Of a DNA stretch of 37,979 nucleotides, positions 5,201 to 37,979 are shown piece after piece; the stretch's first letter is position 1, and each line of letters starts with the position of its first letter. The notes beneath the pieces are model-generated. The model ran no database searches and was not told the DNA's origin. It saw nothing but the letters and a program-made list of their open reading frames with translations. The position numbers and the translations under genes were made by a program. This stretch comes from Ochromonas danica (taxonomy: Eukaryota > Sar > Chrysophyceae > Chromulinales > Chromulinaceae): assembly GCA_015146655.1 (NCBI GenBank), contig VKHL01000151.1, positions 29,112-67,090 on the forward strand. Reading direction: 5' to 3'.

Positions 5201-7149
5201 ATGGCGTTGGCAGCAGACCAAGAGAATAATCAGAACAAACAGAAGCAGAGCCCGGGAACCCCCATTGACCTCAGCACGTCATGTCCAGGTCCTCTTATGG
5301 GGGGACAGTGTCTCCTCATGATCTCCCTCCAGGATTGAGGAGTTGCAATTTGGTGGTGAACCAAGAAGCAACGGCCGAAAATAGGGCCCTACTGTCCATG
5401 TTGAGACGCTCCATGAAGGTAATCAGTTTTTTGTTGCACACTTTTCTCGATGCTTACCTTTTAATGCTTTGTCAGATGTCATGTGCGTTAATTGTCGAAG
5501 GAAATGCCAATTTATTGCTATTCAACCTCCAACAACATGCAACGGTCGTCACCTCGGTACTGTCAAATGATATTCGCTGTGACCACAGATTAAAGCCTAC
5601 TGCTGGAAGTCGCATAGGACATGGTATTAGGAAATATTTGGGCTTCAAGGTTGATCTTGGTTATGGTAGTTCGGGTACTTTGTTGATGACATCCCAGCTG
5701 ATAGGAAATTTTGATCCCGTCCACATTGACAATGTGAGAGATGTGGTCAAAATGATTGGAGATCGCTATTCCTTGAGGACTGAAGAAGCTAGACGTGTAT
5801 ATTCTTCTTGCTTGCTGCTACCATCAGTACTGTTGTCCAATGTCGCAGTGTATACCCAACTGGCAACTAGCCTGATTAACCCCATCGATAATTCCAAGCA
5901 AGAATTAAGTGACATGGCTGGGAACAAGCAGATTTCTCCCAATTGGTTTCGCACCCTTGAACGCTATTGCAAGCGTTTGCAAGTGGTGGTGGAGAATATT
6001 AACACTGCCACTGACCGCCTCTCTACCGTGGCTAGACGATACTCAGAACCTGATACCAAGAAGTACTATCTTTCTTGCTTCCAATACCGCTCGGAAGGGT
6101 TTGTGGACCAAGTGAACGAGATGTTGCTGGAGGTGAGCAAGCTGATTCCAGACCACCACCTGAGCTGGACCTTCCATCTGGATGCAGAAGTGGTGGACAA
6201 CAGCAGTGGTCACCGCACTTTCTACCAACACCTCTTCTTCTTCCTGGAAGGCATTTTGTTGCGGTGGTCTGATTGTTGTTCATCTTCTCATATCTTGATC
6301 GAGTTTACACCTCAAGATCGCGTTGTTGTTGATCATCGCCAAAGTTCTGACCTCCCCAATAGCACCTCGTCAGACATGGATTTAGGTTATGTTTCTGTCA
6401 CCTTTACTCCGTTGACTTTTAAGGACGTTGAGGACAGCTTCTTTTCAGCCATTTCTAGGAGTAATGACTTTGTGGAAATCCTCCATACAAGTCTGCACAC
6501 GGTTGATCACAGCGCTGGCCTCGAAATTATCAACAACACGCCTCGTGATAGTTTTCTCACACAGACTGTGGGCAATGCTTTAATTGCGTATCGAATAATT
6601 ATTCCCATGCATGTTTATTTACAAGATATGTCGACCTCTGTTGTGGCGGATAGTCACATGGTCTCAACATCCTTTGAAGCAGCAATTCCTGCCATAAGTA
6701 GTCGTTCTTCCCAACACACTCGTTTGCTGGGTTTGGAAGTATCTCGTCGTTCAGTCTATCATAGTAGCTTTTCTGCGCAGTCTATGAAAGACTTGGTGCG
6801 TATGAGGCGAGCTTCGATTCGATCGGACCACAGCTCTTCTCGTCGGAATAAAGTATGGGCGGAGATTAGCTGTGCTATTGACCTATCTCGTGATACTGCT
6901 CATTCTCCCCTTCGGCAGTCAATTATTTGTAACGATGTCAAACTTGTTGAAGTGGAGGAGGAAGAATGTGTTGAAGTTGCGGGTAACAAAACAGGTGGAG
7001 AGTCACAGTGGATGTTGCCCAGTCAAAAAGAAGATCTTCCTCGTCAATATTCAACAACATTAGAAGTCCCCATGAAGGCTTCTCGCCGGCCTCTTTGGCG
7101 CAGATTATTGTTCTCTCTGTTCTGTTGCTGTTACAGAGGAACGAGATAA
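5201..7149 (+). CDS. GAF-like sensor / degenerate histidine-kinase protein, family member A
   Basis: Three exons (5201-5288, 5333-5418, 5476-7149) give 615 aa. The 44-nt first intron joins two frames; the 57-nt second intron is a multiple of three without a stop. The splice just before MSCALIVEGNAN has phase-0 counterparts in members B and C, which supports it. Residues about 60-175 read as a GAF-like domain (KYLGFKVDLGYGSSGTLLM). Residues 221-328 are the module identical in all three paralogues: a helical part resembling a histidine-kinase dimerisation domain (KKYYLSCFQYRSEGF, VNEMLLEVSKL), then the start of an ATPase-like fold (TFYQHLFFFLEGILLRW). No H-box or N-box is present. The second half of the ATPase-like fold has diverged. 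The tail ends in a basic, Cys-rich stretch, RRLLFSLFCCCYRGTR. ATG 5117 in the same first-exon frame is an alternative start. The signalling role is inferred. Confidence 0.78.
5964..6285 (+). repeat. Identical coding block, copy in member A
   Basis: All 322 bases equal 29547-29868 in member C, and 318 of them (5968-6285) equal the reverse complement of 25062-25379 in member B. I compared them line by line and found no mismatch. The left border lies at the codons for Tyr-Cys-Lys, the right border within Ser-Ser after LLRWSDCC. DNA outside is hardly alignable. A short motif TTGCAAGCGTTTGCAA, with two TTGCAA units, sits at the left border. Confidence 0.97.
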
Positions 7150-14690: not shown

Positions 14691-14767
14691 ATGGTGGAAG
14701 GTAGCGGCATTGCGACGTGTTAGAAATGTCAACTTTATGAACAACAACTAAATGTGTAGAACTACTG
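14691..14767 (+). repeat. 77-bp direct duplicate, left of the gap
   Basis: Identical, base for base, to 14778-14854. It begins ATGGTGGAAGGTAGCGG and ends AACTACTG immediately before the N run. Confidence 0.97.
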
Positions 14768-14777
14768 NNNNNNNNNN
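14768..14777. other. Assembly gap (10 N)
   Basis: Ten undetermined bases. Because the sequence on both sides is the same 77 bases abutting the gap exactly, the natural reading is two overlapping contig ends that the scaffolder failed to merge. Confidence 0.95.
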
Positions 14778-14854
14778 ATGGTGGAAGGTAGCGGCATTGC
14801 GACGTGTTAGAAATGTCAACTTTATGAACAACAACTAAATGTGTAGAACTACTG
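14778..14854 (+). repeat. 77-bp direct duplicate, right of the gap
   Basis: Exact copy of 14691-14767, starting immediately after the N run. Confidence 0.97.
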
Positions 14855-24044: not shown

Positions 24045-26106
24045 TTACGGACTGGCAGTGCGACCAGTCGTGGCAGCAGAGAAGGAAGACTTGGTATTGA
24101 TTGGCGCGATCTTTGGCCTCCAATGGCGAGGACTACCGCTGGAATCGCTTCGATCCAATGAAGGGCTAGAGAAGATGAAAGAGGAGCGATTCATCAGCTT
24201 GTGCATAAAGCTGCGACTGATGTCAACGATCTGCTTCATCCACTCCATCTGATGACTTGGCTCCTCCTCTATGACACTGTGATCGTCGCCTTCATTTCCT
24301 GTTGCTTTCGAGCCTTTGCCCACAGGAGAGATTGATCGTCCTCGTTGGGCAAATCGAGGAGTACGAGGCGCATGTTGTAGACCACTCTCTTTGGTACTGC
24401 TAACATGATGAATGATCAATGACGACCGCAGCCCCGGGATTGAAGAAACAGTGAACGCAGTCATGCCATCCTCACACACCACTGATCGCTTTCTTGTCGC
24501 AATATCCCTTTGAACAGAGAAACTGCGGCAGAATGCTTTTGACTTCAGGAACTGGCTTCGACTATACACCAAAGACTCTGTAGGGGCATTAGATGAAGTC
24601 TCATCATCCAGCCACTCGTCCTTGCTGACCTCGACTTCTCGATGCGATACCGAGTGACTATCAACACTGGAACAGCCCAGAGCAGAAGGATAAAGAACAC
24701 GACTATTGCTACGACCAAGATGTGAATCCAAGACAAGATGAAAGTGGCATGGTAGACGAATGAGATAGCTCTCTGCCTCCACCGACTCACCCTCTCCTTC
24801 ACACACACCTCGTCCCGCTCCACTCGCCTTCTCAGCCTGCAACACCTCTACACGAGCACCATGATCCGTCAGACGAAGAAAGTCGCCCAGCATCTCCACC
24901 AACTGTCTGCTGCGAGACTTCGCCACCTTCACCTCTTCACTGTTCTGACTCACATGCTCAGGCTGGAATCGTACCATCAGATAGCCCAACTCCAGACGAT
25001 TCTGACTGTCCACTGAGGAATGAAAAGAGTGTTCACAATCAAAGCTCACCGATACATGAGCAGATGAACAACAATCAGACCACCGCAACAAAATGCCTTC
25101 CAGGAAGAAGAAGAGGTGTTGGTAGAAAGTGCGGTGACCACTGCTGTTGTCCACCACTTCTGCATCCAGATGGAAGGTCCAGCTCAGGTGGTGGTCTGGA
25201 ATCAGCTTGCTCACCTCCAGCAACATCTCGTTCACTTGGTCCACAAACCCTTCCGAGCGGTATTGGAAGCAAGAAAGATAGTACTTCTTGGTATCAGGTT
25301 CTGAGTATCGTCTAGCCACGGTAGAGAGGCGGTCAGTGGCAGTGTTAATATTCTCCACCACCACTTGCAAACGCTTGCAGTAATGGTCGAGACGATGTTG
25401 CGTAGTGGTGAACCGTGGAGTTGGTTGAGCTGTGAGGAAACTTCTCGCATTTGGAAGATTGAAAAACTTGGGTGATCCTCTGCATTTTTCTTCTTGGAGA
25501 CAACTTTGTATCTTTTTCGAGATGTTGGTAGCAACAGATAAGTAGACTTGTAATGCAGTGAAGAGAATGCTGGTGTTGACGATCATAGACTTGGCCGCGG
25601 AGGCTTCGTCTTCTTCGCGAATCTTGTGACGGTCTTCTATCATGGCTGCAATCTCCTGTATGATCATAATATCCTTGTTAGATATCATAGAAAACTCTCC
25701 AGAAAGCAGCATGAGAGTTCCTCTTCGACCGTTGCTGAGAGAGAGTGTGATGCCAATATAGCGTCGAATGGCACCATGTAGCATTGTAGCGATGATGGGC
25801 TTTACTCGCTCATCAATAGAGAGGTCAGAAGAAATGAGGCAAGCCAAAGGGTCGCCATTGAAGGACCTTTTGAAGATAATGCTGTTGGCATTGGCATCAG
25901 CGATAAAAGCTTCACACATCTACAGGCAGGAATCATTGGTAATCATAATGAAACTGCATAATGATTGGCATAACTGCACTCACCTGAAGCCTTCTCTTAG
26001 CTAAGGAAAGTAAGAAGCGATTTGCAATGGTTTCGTCGTCATTTATCTCAATACCGCAAAGGTCAAGGCGATCGGACAATGACTGAGACAAAATATCCAT
26101 AATCAT
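24045..26106 (-). CDS. GAF-like sensor / degenerate histidine-kinase protein, family member B
   Basis: Exons 25984-26106 and 24045-25919 are joined in phase 0 over a 64-nt intron and give 665 aa. Exon 1 ends NRFLLSLAKRRLQ, matching ALLSMLRRSMK in A and ALLSLLRRQLQ in C, with the splice at the same place. Residues about 42-165 form the GAF-like domain (IRRYIGITLSLSNGRRGTLML, IIQEIAAMIEDRHKIREED). Residues 222-436 are the kinase-like module identical in DNA to member C: dimerisation-like helices, then an ATPase-like fold closing with SRQLVEMLGDFLRLTDHGARV and SYLIRLPCHFHL, which resembles the last helix and strands of histidine-kinase ATPase domains. The H-box, N-box and glycine box are absent, so catalysis is unlikely. 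The tail (residues 440-665) is Ser/Arg-rich. It lies downstream of the bZIP gene on the same strand. Confidence 0.8.
24735..25379 (-). repeat. 645-bp identical coding block, copy in member B
   Basis: The reverse complement is identical, base for base by my line-by-line reading, to 29551-30195 in member C. The first 318 bases in gene direction (25379-25062) also equal 5968-6285 in member A. It is inverted with respect to the C copy, with 4.17 kb between. Confidence 0.96.
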
Positions 26107-26815: not shown

Positions 26816-28015
26816 CTAGAGTGAATAAGGAGGTGGCATCCCCATGTGAAAAGTTGGTGGTCCAGGAAATGGAACACCTGATAAAGAGACCGGTGGTCCC
26901 CGACCCATTGCAGTCATGGGGAAATAGGCAGGCGGAGGGCCTCCAGCCAGCACATTTATCCCGGCCTCGGGATTAGGGCACGAAGTTGCCACAGAGCCAC
27001 TAATTAAGGAATTTAAACGGCTGCGCATCATCTGGTTATGGCGCTCCAATGCTTGAATAGTCTGTTGCATACGCGAAGTGAACAACTTTTTGCGATCTCT
27101 AGTTAGTTTGGCATGCATACGATTCCTTTCTCTCCTATACCACAGCATGATGATTAGAAGTCACGAGATGAAAAACAAATTGAAAACTCACTTTTGATCG
27201 CCAGGGCTCAACGATTTGCTGCCCATGTCAAAGGAATGGTCCTGAATCTCCTTCCCATCCAGCCAAGAGGTTGAAATAGCGGAGGAAAATGCGGAAGCAT
27301 TCGCAAGATGTTCTTCGTCCGTCCCATGGAGCTGCTCTCCCCCTGAGACATCTCCTTCCACAGATTCTCCACCACCAGAGTCCATGGGCACTATCGAGGG
27401 AGCCATATAATCCTCCGATGTGGAAGTGGACAAAGCTCGTTCTCGAGTTCCGGCCAGTATATGGGTCTGCTGCTCATATTTACTGCGAAAAGTTCGAGCT
27501 GCTTCCGCACGCACCTTATGCCTTAACTGATCGATAATGTTTCCTTTCGGAACTGAAATCGATCGATCATACTCATCATTCAATGCTGCCATGGAGTGAG
27601 CTGCGGAGGATATTCGACTGGGATGGACATCGTGTGGAATTTCTTCCGGCTTGTGCAAGGCTAATAAAATATTGGCAGTGTTGCTTTCTTCAAGTAATTG
27701 TTCTAGTCGAGAGGCCTATGCAAAAATTTCAACCATTGTCAGTGAGAATAAAATAGGAAATTCGTCAGAAATTCTGTTCCTCCTAACCTCTCGTTGGAGC
27801 TCCAAGAGGCGCATTTTCATCCCTTCGATCATCTCCTTTTTCCTCAGTCTAGTCCTCTTCGCATGTTCACGGTTGCGCTCTCGATTTTTTTCAAGTTTAT
27901 TCTCGATGCTTTGCTCTGGATCTGAAGGAATGTCCCCCGAAGATAACGAAGGATTATTTTCTGTCTTATCCATTGATAATTGGCTTTCTAAATCAACTGT
28001 GTCGAGTTCCGTCAT
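26816..28015 (-). CDS. Transcription factor with two separate bZIP domains
   Basis: Exons 27788-28015, 27192-27715 and 26816-27134 (introns 72 and 57 nt, phases 0 and 2) give 356 aa. Basic region 1, NREHAKRTR at residues 48-56, is followed by KKEMIEGMKMRLLELQREA and SRLEQLLEE, a leucine zipper that continues across intron 1. Basic region 2, NRMHAKLTR at residues 255-263 just after intron 2, is followed by DRKKLFTSRMQQTIQALERH and a second zipper. Both fit the bZIP pattern N-x3-A-x2-[CST]-R. Between them lies a Ser-rich linker, and the C-terminus is Pro/Gly/Met-rich, possibly activating. The types resemble stramenopile bZIP proteins. It is expected to bind ACGT- or TGAC-core DNA in the nucleus. 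It sits between members B and C, inside the inverted repeat. Confidence 0.87.
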
Positions 28016-28865: not shown

Positions 28866-30753
28866 ATGGGGAGAGGTGTTCTCTTGGAGCTGTCGTCGTG
28901 GTGGAAGCATGTTGGTATTGAAGTTGATGTCGGCTTGACTTCCGATAACGTAGCTCTGCTTTCTTTACTGCGAAGACAACTGCAGGTATTGTCATACAAA
29001 GATAGTTTACCCCTCAAAGATGGCCTGTAACCTTTAGCTGTCGCCCTCTTGTCAGATGGATCACGTCTGCGTGGTGAGAGACCACGCCAACCTCCAATTG
29101 TTTGTGAAACAACATCCCAAAGACAGCTTGAAAACCTTTATCTCATGCAATCTTCACGCAGACTCAGAGAAGATGAAGTGCGCCCCAGATGACTCTCTCA
29201 GAGCATTTGTTGGCCGCGCGATCACACTTCCTTTCGGTAAATACACAATCTTGGCGTTCTCCTCAGCAGTTACGACACCTCTGACACCATCGGCAGTGGA
29301 AATATTAGAGCAGATAGAGTCTATGATTTGTGATCGCTATCGAGTGTATTTGAACGAAGCTGCCAAGGCGACCTATGAGATCATCACCACCCACGCAGTC
29401 CTGCTCTCCCCTCTCCAGACATACCTCAACATAGCCAATCGCATGGCTGACAGCATTCGATCTGCGTTGACGGAAATGACTCTTATGCTTTACAAGGTTG
29501 AAAACTGTAAACTATATTCATGCTCAGCATCCAATGCCTTGGACTACTATTGCAAGCGTTTGCAAGTGGTGGTGGAGAATATTAACACTGCCACTGACCG
29601 CCTCTCTACCGTGGCTAGACGATACTCAGAACCTGATACCAAGAAGTACTATCTTTCTTGCTTCCAATACCGCTCGGAAGGGTTTGTGGACCAAGTGAAC
29701 GAGATGTTGCTGGAGGTGAGCAAGCTGATTCCAGACCACCACCTGAGCTGGACCTTCCATCTGGATGCAGAAGTGGTGGACAACAGCAGTGGTCACCGCA
29801 CTTTCTACCAACACCTCTTCTTCTTCCTGGAAGGCATTTTGTTGCGGTGGTCTGATTGTTGTTCATCTGCTCATGTATCGGTGAGCTTTGATTGTGAACA
29901 CTCTTTTCATTCCTCAGTGGACAGTCAGAATCGTCTGGAGTTGGGCTATCTGATGGTACGATTCCAGCCTGAGCATGTGAGTCAGAACAGTGAAGAGGTG
30001 AAGGTGGCGAAGTCTCGCAGCAGACAGTTGGTGGAGATGCTGGGCGACTTTCTTCGTCTGACGGATCATGGTGCTCGTGTAGAGGTGTTGCAGGCTGAGA
30101 AGGCGAGTGGAGCGGGACGAGGTGTGTGTGAAGGAGAGGGTGAGTCGGTGGAGGCAGAGAGCTATCTCATTCGTCTACCATGCCACTTTCATCTTCTGAC
30201 TGATCCTCTGTTGAAGCAAATGATGGGACTCTCTGTCAGCAGCAGAAGTCTGTCTGTTTATAGAGGTTGTACAGTCGCTCCTCTGGGTTGGGTTGATGTT
30301 GGACGATCGTCTGGTAGTCGAGTCTATGAACAAACGTTTTCAGTGCTAACAGAGGCTCAAAGTTATCGTAAGTCGGTGATTCTTCAGAATGGAATTTCGT
30401 GGAAGTCGCATATGGCAGAAGTCGCTGTGACAAATCGATCTCAACCACGCGATTCTAATATCCATGGTGTATCTTGGACGTCTGTTGGTCGATTGATTTC
30501 CTCGGGGCGTAACTGGTTGAGTGGTATATTTGGTGATAGCAAAGTCTCCATTGAAGTGCCCACCAACAATCTGATGTTATCGAGTGATGCACAGTCAAAG
30601 CAAACCCCTGAGACACCTCGCACTGTTACTGGTCGCCACGTTTCTTCTTCGTCGTCATCGTCATCTTCCTCTTACACGAACTTTCTTCATCTGGTAGTGC
30701 CCGGGTTTTTGTCGAGGTCTCCGGCTGTGTCCCCAACTGGCATTTCTCTTTGA
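28866..30753 (+). CDS. GAF-like sensor / degenerate histidine-kinase protein, family member C
   Basis: Exons 28866-28985 and 29056-30753 are joined in phase 0 over a 70-nt intron and give 605 aa. The splice position is conserved with A and B. The GAF-like domain (about residues 41-160) contains FVGRAITLPFGKYTILAFSS and AVEILEQIESMICDRYRVY, clearly related to B but strongly diverged. Residues 204-420 are the kinase-like module, 645 bases of which equal member B. The tail (421-605) differs from both paralogues, carries a run of ten serines near residues 570-580, and holds a possible amphipathic helix SVGRLISSGRNWLSGIFG, perhaps comparable to basic/hydrophobic stretches in the tails of A and B. 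No catalytic histidine-kinase boxes are present. It converges on RPN1. Function is inferred as non-catalytic sensing or scaffolding. Confidence 0.8.
29547..30195 (+). repeat. Identical coding block, copy in member C
   Basis: Bases 29551-30195 equal member B (645 bp, inverted). Bases 29547-29868 equal member A (322 bp, direct). The two nested tracts share their left border to within four bases and differ in where they stop on the right. Confidence 0.96.
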
Positions 30754-34752: not shown

Positions 34753-36587
34753 CTAGAAGTCTCCCGAGCCAGAGAAATCACCATCATCCCCGTCGTCTCC
34801 TCCATCATCGTCGTCATCATCGTCATCGTCGTCATCATCCATGAAGTCATCGGAGGCTTGCTCATCGATGCTTCGACGAACTCCACGTCCACCGCTGCTC
34901 GACCCTCCACTCTTGTTGCCAATGCTTCCAGGGCCAGCAGACCCACGACCTGGTGCAGGTCGACCTCTAGCGTTATCCGAATAACCTCCATAGGCGTTCT
35001 TATCGTTGACTGAGAGTTCTTCGTCCTCGCTTTCATTACCCCCGCGGCGATCGTCTTCACTTTGCGAGGCATCGTCACTGGAATCATTCTCCGAGTGAGA
35101 TGCTTGGCGCTTTGGACCAGACATCTGACCCTGGACGTAGGTCTGGCGCCCTCGAGCATTGTAGTCATCGTCATCATCACGCCTGCCAGCATTGCCTCGC
35201 ATCAACTCCACCTCCTCCTTCAGCAGCCTCTCTCGCATCTTCTTCAGCTTTCGCTCTTGTTCCTCCATTAATTCTTCCTCATGCTTGCGATATTTCTCGA
35301 GCTCATGCTCCAGGTAGTCCAAGTTGCGGTGCTTCTCCATGTAGACCTCATAGTAGCGCTGTAGCTCTTTCTCCAACTTCTCCGCTTCGTCCATAAATTG
35401 GGGACGAACATTTTCGAGACTTTTCAATCGCTTCTCAGTGCGCTCTAACTCTTCCTGTTTCTTTGAGATCTTTGATTCCAGGTTCCGTTGATCAGCATCC
35501 AACTCTTCGGCTTCTTTGCGCACATCCTCCACGGATTGTTTGGTGTTTTCAATAATATCCCGCAAGCTTCGTTCCACAAATGCCTGGTCTTTGCCGCCAT
35601 CTGTCATGTCCAAACAGAGTGTGAGAGGTGAGAGAATAAAACGCATGACGAATAGGAGCACGGTCAAGGTCAGTACCTGATGAAGAGGCGATCTGATCCA
35701 GAAAGCGAAGAGCTCGAGTTCTTTCCGAGCGGATTTGTAGCTCAGCTTCCATGAGATCGTACAATTTGGCACCAATCTGAGTAATCTCCGTGGCCAAGGT
35801 ACGAGCTGCCCGCACATCTTGTACTTTGATAGGCGGAGGCGATACTTCCTCCTCATTGCGCCTCGACACTGTCTTGGTGGCACTACAGGAAACCCCAAAA
35901 GAGAAGTGAAGCAGTTGTCTACTGGTGAAGACGTCTTCAAGACTTACTTGTAGAGCAGAGTGGCTAACTTGAGCAGTTCCTGCACTGCCTTGCCATCCGA
36001 GGCATAGAGCTTCTTTGTGTTCAGCTTTAGTCTTGCCTTGTTAGCCATCAAGGTGGCAATGCTGGTGAGGAATTCCACGCGCTCATTCTCAAACTCCACT
36101 CTGTCAGAGATCGGGCTGTCTGGGTCGTACCTGGTGGAGAGGTGGCAGTTAGCGAGGTAGAGAATTATTGCGATACACAACACACAACAAGCACACAACG
36201 AACACACTACACCAAACACACAACGAACACACTAGACCAAACGCAAGGACGTAGAGTCTTACAGTTTCACCATCCAGTACAAAATATCCGCAACTAGTTC
36301 GAAGTTGGGTTTGCGGAAGTTCTCCATCTACCAAGACAGCATGACAGTGGCACAGAAGCACAGCGTGACAACAACAAAAGTAATTCTCCGTGAGTGTCTC
36401 AGATGCGCTGCTAACGACAGAGTGGCACTTACCGAGATTAGGCGAGGATAGCCTAAGGCTCGCATAATCTCCACAAAATCTAGATTCGTTAGCGCCCAAG
36501 TAAAGGTGCATCAGTTAGAAATCGATGGGGTAGCGAGAGCTGGAGCATGGCTGAGGAGCACTTACTTCTCAATTCACGATAAGACAT
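34753..36587 (-). CDS. IFT38: Intraflagellar transport protein IFT38 (CLUAP1 / qilin / FAP22)
   Basis: Six exons (36566-36587, 36433-36479, 36263-36327, 35948-36130, 35677-35882, 34753-35600) give 456 aa; all phases agree. The protein starts MSYRELRNFVEIMRALGYP and continues RLISMENFRKPNFELVADIL, almost identical to animal CLUAP1, then LKLNTKKLYASDGKAVQELL and LYNATKT; this is the calponin-homology-like head. A long coiled coil follows (QSVEDVRKEAEELDADQRN, LEYLEHELEKYRKHEEEL types). IFT38 is a peripheral IFT-B subunit needed to build cilia. The tail, about 110 residues, is rich in Gly, Ser and Asp and contains a run of twelve or so aspartates before GSGDF. The 132-nt intron at 36131-36262 contains an imperfect 25-bp tandem duplicate at 36193 and 36218. 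This is the most intron-rich gene in the window. Confidence 0.95.
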
Positions 36588-37173: not shown

Positions 37174-37979
37174 CTACACAGAGGTCCTCCCAGCCTCTCG
37201 CAGCCTGGAGGCGTCATGGGATGGGAAAGAAGGCACTGAAGGCACTGTAACTGAATCTAACTCGTGCTTGTCATCACACTCTCTTGCTCGCTTTGATCAA
37301 AACAGATGCGCATAGATCTTTACAATAAGAGAAGAAGGCGATGGGTCAAGTCAGACGAAGTCTCAATGGTCTATCAACAGCATGAACTCTTACCGCCAGG
37401 TTGAGATTATCGTCGCGGTAGGTCTTGAGAGAGAGAAGCCTGGGACTGCCTGTCTGACTGCTCAAGTCGCCATGAAGAGATCCTTGAGATGAGTTGTTGT
37501 TGTTATTATTCACCTGAACGAGAAGAATGACATCGTTAAGAAGCACAGAAATCAAATCAAATCAATGGTTCAGAGATTGTTCCTCACTCTGCGGGATAGT
37601 GCAAGGTTTTCAGAGAACTGATTGTTGTCTACCAACCACTCGCCAGTGGCCAAGGCATTGGACAGAGTCTCTGAGAGAGAGAGACAAGCAGAACAACAAT
37701 AACAGAGAGAAAGACAGAGACAGAGAGAGACACACACACACAGGGTGAGAATGGCAACAGGTGATAGCACCCCCTCGCTCTACCTCGATGACGAGAATCA
37801 CCTGACCCCCCCGTGGGCTTCGTTACAATCATTAGTGACCAAGAGAATGCTTCATCTAAGACAGACAGACAAACGAACAAACACACAAACAAACAAACAC
37901 ACAAACAAACAAACAAACAAACAAACAAACAAACAAACAAACAAACAAACAAACAAACACACAAACAAACAAACAAACA
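37174..37979 (-). CDS. Partial multi-exon gene at right edge, product unrecognised
   Basis: Exons were deduced from compatible phases: 37784-37855, 37588-37670, 37394-37513 and, less surely, a last exon 37174-37290 ending in TAG. Joined, they read DEAFSWSLMIVTKPTGGSGD, then ETLSNALATGEWLVDNNQF, SENLALSRRV, an Asn run, SSQGSLHGDLSSQTGSPRLL and SLKTYRDDNLNLA. The frame is continuous over three junctions with GT/AG signals, which chance would rarely give. No family is recognised. Further 5' exons must lie beyond the window, across a microsatellite-bearing intron. If the last intron is not spliced, the protein would instead end near 37346. It converges on the RIIa gene. Confidence 0.5.
37861..37979. 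repeat. Microsatellite, (ACAA)n with ACAC and ACAG variants
   Basis: From 37861 to the edge the sequence is a run of ACAGAC then CAAACAAA-type tetramers with interspersed ACACAC. It lies in the presumed intron of the right-edge gene and continues beyond the window; contig ends often fall in such repeats. Confidence 0.95.

Follow-up and report, generated by a model that had tools for sequence, protein, structure and literature searches.

Background

Regional gene conversion has been described for the clustered protocadherins of fugu, as well as of zebrafish and mammals (PMC1852091). The fugu genes are the closest known system to the locus described below. They are linked paralogues with about 100% identical DNA in the 3' coding part and a diverged 5' recognition part. 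Homogenization takes place within subclusters and not between them, GC3 is raised in the converted part, and the case is argued from synonymous sites (PMC1852091). A similar mosaic of regions with high and low divergence, with apparent ongoing conversion, is known for GOT1 paralogues of Tigriopus californicus (PMC3728101). Those genes are pairs of enzyme genes and are accompanied by population data, which distinguishes them from our case (PMC3728101).

Here we describe three genes (A, B, and C, hereafter the trio) from a stretch of 37,979 nucleotides of the Ochromonas danica genome (contig C151, positions 29112-67090); this whole stretch is called the window. The trio belongs to a different gene family than protocadherins and comes from an algal genome. 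The flanks also differ in their degree of divergence: the low-homology part of FrPcdh2alpha2-7 still has 80% protein identity, according to the figures given for this one fugu subcluster (PMC1852091), versus 25-28% and saturated synonymous sites in the flanks of the trio. A further parallel exists within the same genome. In hybrid histidine kinases (HATPase_c plus Response_reg), linked copies have a homogenized core and a diverged N-terminal part, like the trio. Among the open-licence PMC papers listed by our searches, no report described kinases with such a pattern of homogenized core and diverged flanks. The kind of event is already known; what makes the case interesting is how extremely the flanks have diverged and that the pattern recurs in a sensor-kinase family of a eukaryote.

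Gene models and the gene family

All three genes have the same layout: a predicted short exon 1, a phase-0 intron of 57-70 bp, and a long exon 2. The predicted upstream exon had been overlooked in the first-pass annotation of the window. B and C are transcribed divergently, and A is 19-24 kb distant from them. The features are as follows.

5281-5418, plus strand: predicted exon 1 of gene A, an open frame followed by a GT...AG intron at the site of intron 1 of the paralogues; called from genomic DNA alone
5419-5475, plus strand: predicted intron 1 of gene A, GT...AG, 57 bp, phase 0
5476-7149, plus strand: exon 2 of gene A, with the GAF-like region, the block, the remaining domain, and the tail
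5964-6285, plus strand: block copy of A, 322 bp shared with B, 318 bp shared with B and C
6108-6109, plus strand: site of intron 3 of the paralogues inside the block, counted from the alignment; A, B, and C have neither an intron nor a scar there
24045-25919, minus strand: exon 2 of gene C
24735-25379, minus strand: C side of the exact tract shared by B and C, 645 bp
25062-25379, minus strand: block copy of C, exact match
25984-26106, minus strand: predicted exon 1 of gene C, followed by a 64-bp phase-0 intron
28866-28985, plus strand: predicted exon 1 of gene B, followed by a 70-bp phase-0 intron
29056-30753, plus strand: exon 2 of gene B
29547-29868, plus strand: block copy of B, exact match
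29551-30195, plus strand: B side of the exact tract shared by B and C, 645 bp, ending at the motif LPCHFHL

Protein A, used as a query against the assembly, revealed five further members of the family, on contigs C137, C227, C171, C9, and C17. These remote paralogues were spliced by hand before alignment. Their common layout consists of a first exon, a GAF-like region, a linker, a conserved core, a long low-complexity insert, and a tail, and the identical block of the trio occupies a homologous position within the eight-gene family.

Intron 1, the 5'-most one, is present in all eight genes. Intron 2 was found in four of the five remote members (the exception is L020), intron 3 in all five. Both are missing from A, B, and C without a scar; the site of intron 2 lies outside the identical block, the site of intron 3 inside it. 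The shared absence of the two introns suggests a common ancestry of the trio.

Other matches in the window include RPN1, Arf-like, ammonium-transporter, bZIP, and Cluap1 proteins. Like the predicted GT-AG introns and the light-harvesting family of the assembly, they fit a eukaryotic genome, by our reading that of a flagellated ochrophyte alga. Genes C and B have the bZIP-like frame (26819-27148, minus strand) between them. The match to Cluap1, a protein of flagellar transport, is at 34756-35940 on the minus strand (E 3.1e-31) and suggests a flagellated stage. Two repeats are also worth recording. At 14691-14854, just 3' of a frame similar to tRNA (uracil-5-)-methyltransferase, a unit of 77 bp is present in two exact copies, 87 bp from start to start. 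An (ACAA)n-like repeat at 37845-37979 reaches the very end of the contig and is possibly the reason why the contig stops there.

Extent of the identical block

Positions 5968-6285 of A are equal to 29551-29868 of B and to the reverse complement of 25062-25379 of C, with 318 matches of 318. The exact run is 322 bp for A and B (5964-6285 and 29547-29868) and 318 bp for A and C (5968-6285). It is 645 bp for B and C (29551-30195 and 24735-25379 of the minus strand), i.e., the tract continues 327 bp past the three-way block up to the last conserved motif, LPCHFHL. Thus the identity of 318-322 bp in three copies reported in the first-pass annotation was confirmed, while its extent was understated for B and C. 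A repeat search of the window gave these two copies as arms of an inverted repeat (24735-25388 and 29542-30195) with 4153 bp between the arms.

In terms of codons, the longest identical runs are 107 (A and B), 106 (A and C), and 215 (B and C). Shuffling the aligned codons 10,000 times gave maxima of 10, 11, and 17, respectively, so chance is excluded as the source of the identity. A DNA search of the assembly (31.19 Mb, 337 contigs) with the 318-bp block found at least three copies; the matches listed all lie within the window, in A, B, or C. Each of the three copies is embedded in unique flanking DNA. No Rfam match at gathering scores was found anywhere in the window.

Divergence inside and outside the block

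Within the block, both pS and pN are 0.00 in all three pairs of aligned codons. On its 5' side, pS among A, B, and C is 0.73-0.84. In the part of the domain that remains after the block, pS is 0.74 for A versus B or C, and 0.00 for B versus C up to LPCHFHL; in the tails it is again 0.73-0.83 among the three genes. The synonymous divergence of the aligned genes thus changes from 0.00 inside the block to 0.73-0.84 outside, which is the outcome that the first-pass annotation had named as support for conversion. The weak protein relationship of the flanks, which it also mentioned, holds too: on the GAF side the identity is 25.0-28.5% within the trio, no closer than to the five remote paralogues (18.1-30.0%). 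For the block, the corresponding values are 100% within the trio and 28-42% between the trio and the remote paralogues.

The left end of the tract coincides with the close of the linker, whose length is highly variable between the members, and agrees within 4 bp across all three pairs. The right ends are at CSS, ahead of an insertion-rich stretch, and, for B and C, at LPCHFHL, the last conserved motif. Thus the ends of the tracts coincide with the ends of alignable DNA, as homology-dependent exchange predicts. GC3 of the block is 0.63 in the trio. It is lower upstream (0.47-0.54) and in the corresponding block of the five remote paralogues (0.33-0.49).

Histidine kinases of the same genome

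Two control families, histidine kinases and light-harvesting proteins, were chosen for their large size and do not provide an unbiased base rate. A search of the assembly with PF02518 gave 38 scored matches among 101 candidates. Four proteins (from 12 loci) were scanned for domains: HATPase_c was present in all four, and Response_reg was above the cut-off in three of them. The N-terminal parts that were read (loci L060-L099) look hydrophobic, of membrane type, and diverged. Many kinase loci are paired, inverted or in tandem, within a contig (six loci on C33, four on C57, three on C53, and three on C135).

Loci L062 and L070, located 51 kb apart on C33, have an exact tract of 263 bp that runs from NTNSF to NAVK; the coding DNA to either side of it is diverged. 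With this core as the query, 40 scored matches among 59 candidates were obtained. We took 39 of these 40 matches (C50:119808 was omitted) and added C118 from the HATPase list, which resulted in 40 loci on 20 contigs. Only pairs with DNA identity below 68% in both flanks were retained, namely 735 of the 780 pairs, 18 of them on the same contig and 717 on different contigs.

The core is at least 95% identical in 16 of the 18 same-contig pairs, which are non-independent since the 16 come from three contigs (12 from C33, three from C135, and one from C29), versus two of the 717 different-contig pairs, some of which may still be linked because contigs are fragments. Both of the latter two pairs join C161 with C20. 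The mean identity of the core in the filtered pairs is 0.948 for the same contig versus 0.745 for different contigs, with mean flank identities of 0.49/0.43 and 0.48/0.45, respectively. For the first 32 loci the numbers were 16 of 16 versus 2 of 457, and label shuffling matched this difference in none of 5000 trials. The two same-contig exceptions are C5a-C5c and C5b-C5c, with cores 68% identical and not homogenized; C5c is distant from C5a and C5b. On C33, cores are 97% alike across 131 kb and identical across 51-71 kb.

The 45 pairs excluded by the filter (at least 68% identity in a flank) include 18 same-contig pairs, 17 of them with a core at least 95% identical, and 27 different-contig pairs, 10 of them with such a core. 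By our reading these ten (C132-C141, and C57 with C11 and C114) are ordinary similar copies; four of them have one flank 56-62% alike. Among the excluded pairs there are also one-sided mosaics, such as C20a-C20b (left flank 0.96, right flank 0.40) and C33e-C33f (1.00 and 0.57).

In the linked pair L062-L070, pS of the core is 0.02; the G-box region, with a protein identity of 68%, has 0.75. The unlinked pair L062-L064 has pS 0.69 in the core despite a protein identity of 92%, and 0.85 in the G-box region (87%). This means that a constrained protein there leaves synonymous sites free to change, which agrees with the earlier claim that selection on the protein is insufficient for synonymous identity. 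Physical linkage, not protein constraint, predicts core identity in the kinases, in a sample where all 16 homogenized pairs are from three contigs.

An exact tract of 522 bp in L062-L063 spans a predicted intron after the H-box, so that the template there would have been DNA, not cDNA. All 40 loci have a higher GC3 in the kinase core than in the right flank. Core GC3 is also high (0.60 versus 0.64) in contigs with one sampled copy, which makes GC3 weak evidence for conversion and weakens its use as proof of repeated conversion. Expression or constraint may account for the raised GC3 of the kinase core.

Light-harvesting genes

The light-harvesting family has 47 matches in the assembly, and the stretches around 31 of them were compared. 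Against the PDB, L018 (cut-off 1e-40) matched only the multi-domain chains of 9vfj; L016 gave these first, followed by single-domain chains named XLH12, VCPI-1, and FCPI-1, names that point to ochrophytes. Four exact or nearly exact tandem copies on C224 (L029-L032) share exact tracts of 1.74-1.99 kb, a length set by how much sequence was taken. L050 and L051, inverted relative to each other on C166, are identical over 1070 bp. L042 and L043 share an exact tract of 690 bp with flanks at background identity, and L027 shares an exact tract of 440 bp with L029-L032; in L027-L028 and L027-L029 the identity drops on both sides of the tract. Tracts in this family are mostly whole-gene.

Protein domains of the trio

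Pfam GAF gave no match in A, B, or C at E<=1. The sole member supporting a GAF domain is the paralogue L020, where PF01590 scores 22.4 bits, exactly the cut-off of 22.4 (E 1.9e-4). For kinase families there was no Pfam match at E<=1 in the trio or in the frames of the five paralogues, and none in NCBIfam. The matches that were returned for the trio are to unrelated families far below the cut-off (e.g., Snapin_Pallidin, E 0.19, and NurA, 16 bits versus a cut-off of 400) and to one unknown PDB protein (E 0.3). A comparison of the trio core with the kinase core by hhalign gave E 0.43, versus 0.45 for the reversed control; at full length the value was 0.25.

The structure model of the trio domain is of low confidence (pLDDT 44, pTM 0.40; another prediction has pLDDT 43). 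The Foldseek matches of this model are at most a hint: histidine kinases make up 10 of the best 20 rows, the lowest E being 0.012, with no row at 0.001 or better. The N-box helix forms the end of the kinase core, and the motif FLEGxxxRWxxxCSS of the trio resembles LLSNAVKYSS by eye. In its motif order, judged by eye, the downstream domain of the trio resembles a degenerate DHp/ATPase module, and it does so weakly in the low-confidence model. Comparison of the sequences gives no evidence of kinship between the trio and the hybrid kinases. The identification of the trio as histidine kinases is unsupported by Pfam, NCBIfam, PDB sequence search, and profile-profile comparison.

Probable gene conversion and alternative explanations

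We regard ectopic (interlocus) gene conversion between the linked paralogues A, B, and C as the best explanation, with a probability of roughly 0.87. A, B, and C would then be old, strongly diverged paralogues, each with a GAF-like sensor region and a conserved downstream domain. The part of the domain from its start through CSS would have been copied among all three genes, 4-24 kb apart, and B and C would have exchanged the domain up to its final motif. The tracts would halt where DNA homology is lost, at the length-variable linker on the left and, on the right, at sequence that is rich in insertions or cannot be aligned. The mechanism may be strand exchange or DNA repair. We infer that exchange has been ongoing since the flanks began to diverge, because flanks as diverged as those of today could hardly pair. 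The blocks of the remote paralogues are likewise too diverged for pairing, and early and continued exchange is therefore required for the trio. The last round of conversion is probably recent, and the process probably long-lasting. Its outcome would be a common output module behind differing sensors. One point against conversion is that the coincident left ends are more regular than random tract ends; such regularity is expected if homology sets the end.

An artefact of assembly or polishing, in which mixing of reads from near-identical copies would have flattened small differences, seems very unlikely. Reads shorter than 318-645 bp could indeed be assigned to a wrong copy. However, flattening hides a few differences at most and cannot make widely diverged segments identical. 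The unique flanks around each copy of the block also speak against it. Moreover, the assembly retains scattered differences in comparable repeats: the cores of C33a/b and C33c-f are 97% alike with 6-7 synonymous codon differences, and C29a-C29b are 97% alike.

We give just as little weight to replacement of a cassette by another route, i.e., by recombination of cDNA into the genes or by insertion of a mobile cassette. The scarless loss of introns 2 and 3 and the retention of intron 1, with the intron-3 site inside the block, are in its favour: intron loss biased to the 3' side with the 5' intron kept is classically attributed to cDNA. Yet the site of intron 2 is outside the block and L020 also has no intron 2, so the loss need not belong to the event that produced the block, and the comparable kinase tract of L062-L063 carries a predicted intron. 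The first-pass annotation had named conversion and cassette replacement together. The zero pS of the block, the saturated flanks, and the linkage pattern of the kinases favour conversion, whereas the homologous position of the block and the lack of a copy beyond the three genes among the matches listed speak against a separate mobile cassette.

Still less probable is that the genes were triplicated recently and then diverged very fast outside the block, through hypermutation or diversifying selection. Diversification could plausibly act on the sensor and tail regions, but the saturation of the flanks covers synonymous sites and not replacement sites alone, and the GAF-side divergence within the trio equals that to the remote paralogues. 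In addition, A is saturated relative to B and C in the remaining conserved domain, where B and C are the same. Finally, preservation of the block by purifying selection at the nucleotide level (an overlapping code or an RNA element) can practically be dismissed, given that the five paralogues have a block protein only 28-42% identical and are absent from the listed DNA matches to the block, and that the unlinked kinase pair is synonymously saturated within a protein core 92% identical.

Implications

Conversion between linked paralogues may have a wider role in this genome. We tentatively propose, at clearly less than even odds, that the sensor-kinase repertoire, both the true hybrid kinases and the window's GAF family, evolves by core conversion limited by linkage and homology. 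An interchangeable output module would be kept identical among neighbours while the sensor ends diverge freely, and a division into constant and variable receptor parts would be maintained by recombination. In such a genome, trees of the kinase core would cluster neighbours and not true relatives, and identity of the core would be mistaken for recent duplication. The case is a natural test of the reach of ectopic conversion and of its stopping points. It suggests that, in a large eukaryotic family, sensor and output parts can be set free by recombination to evolve separately.
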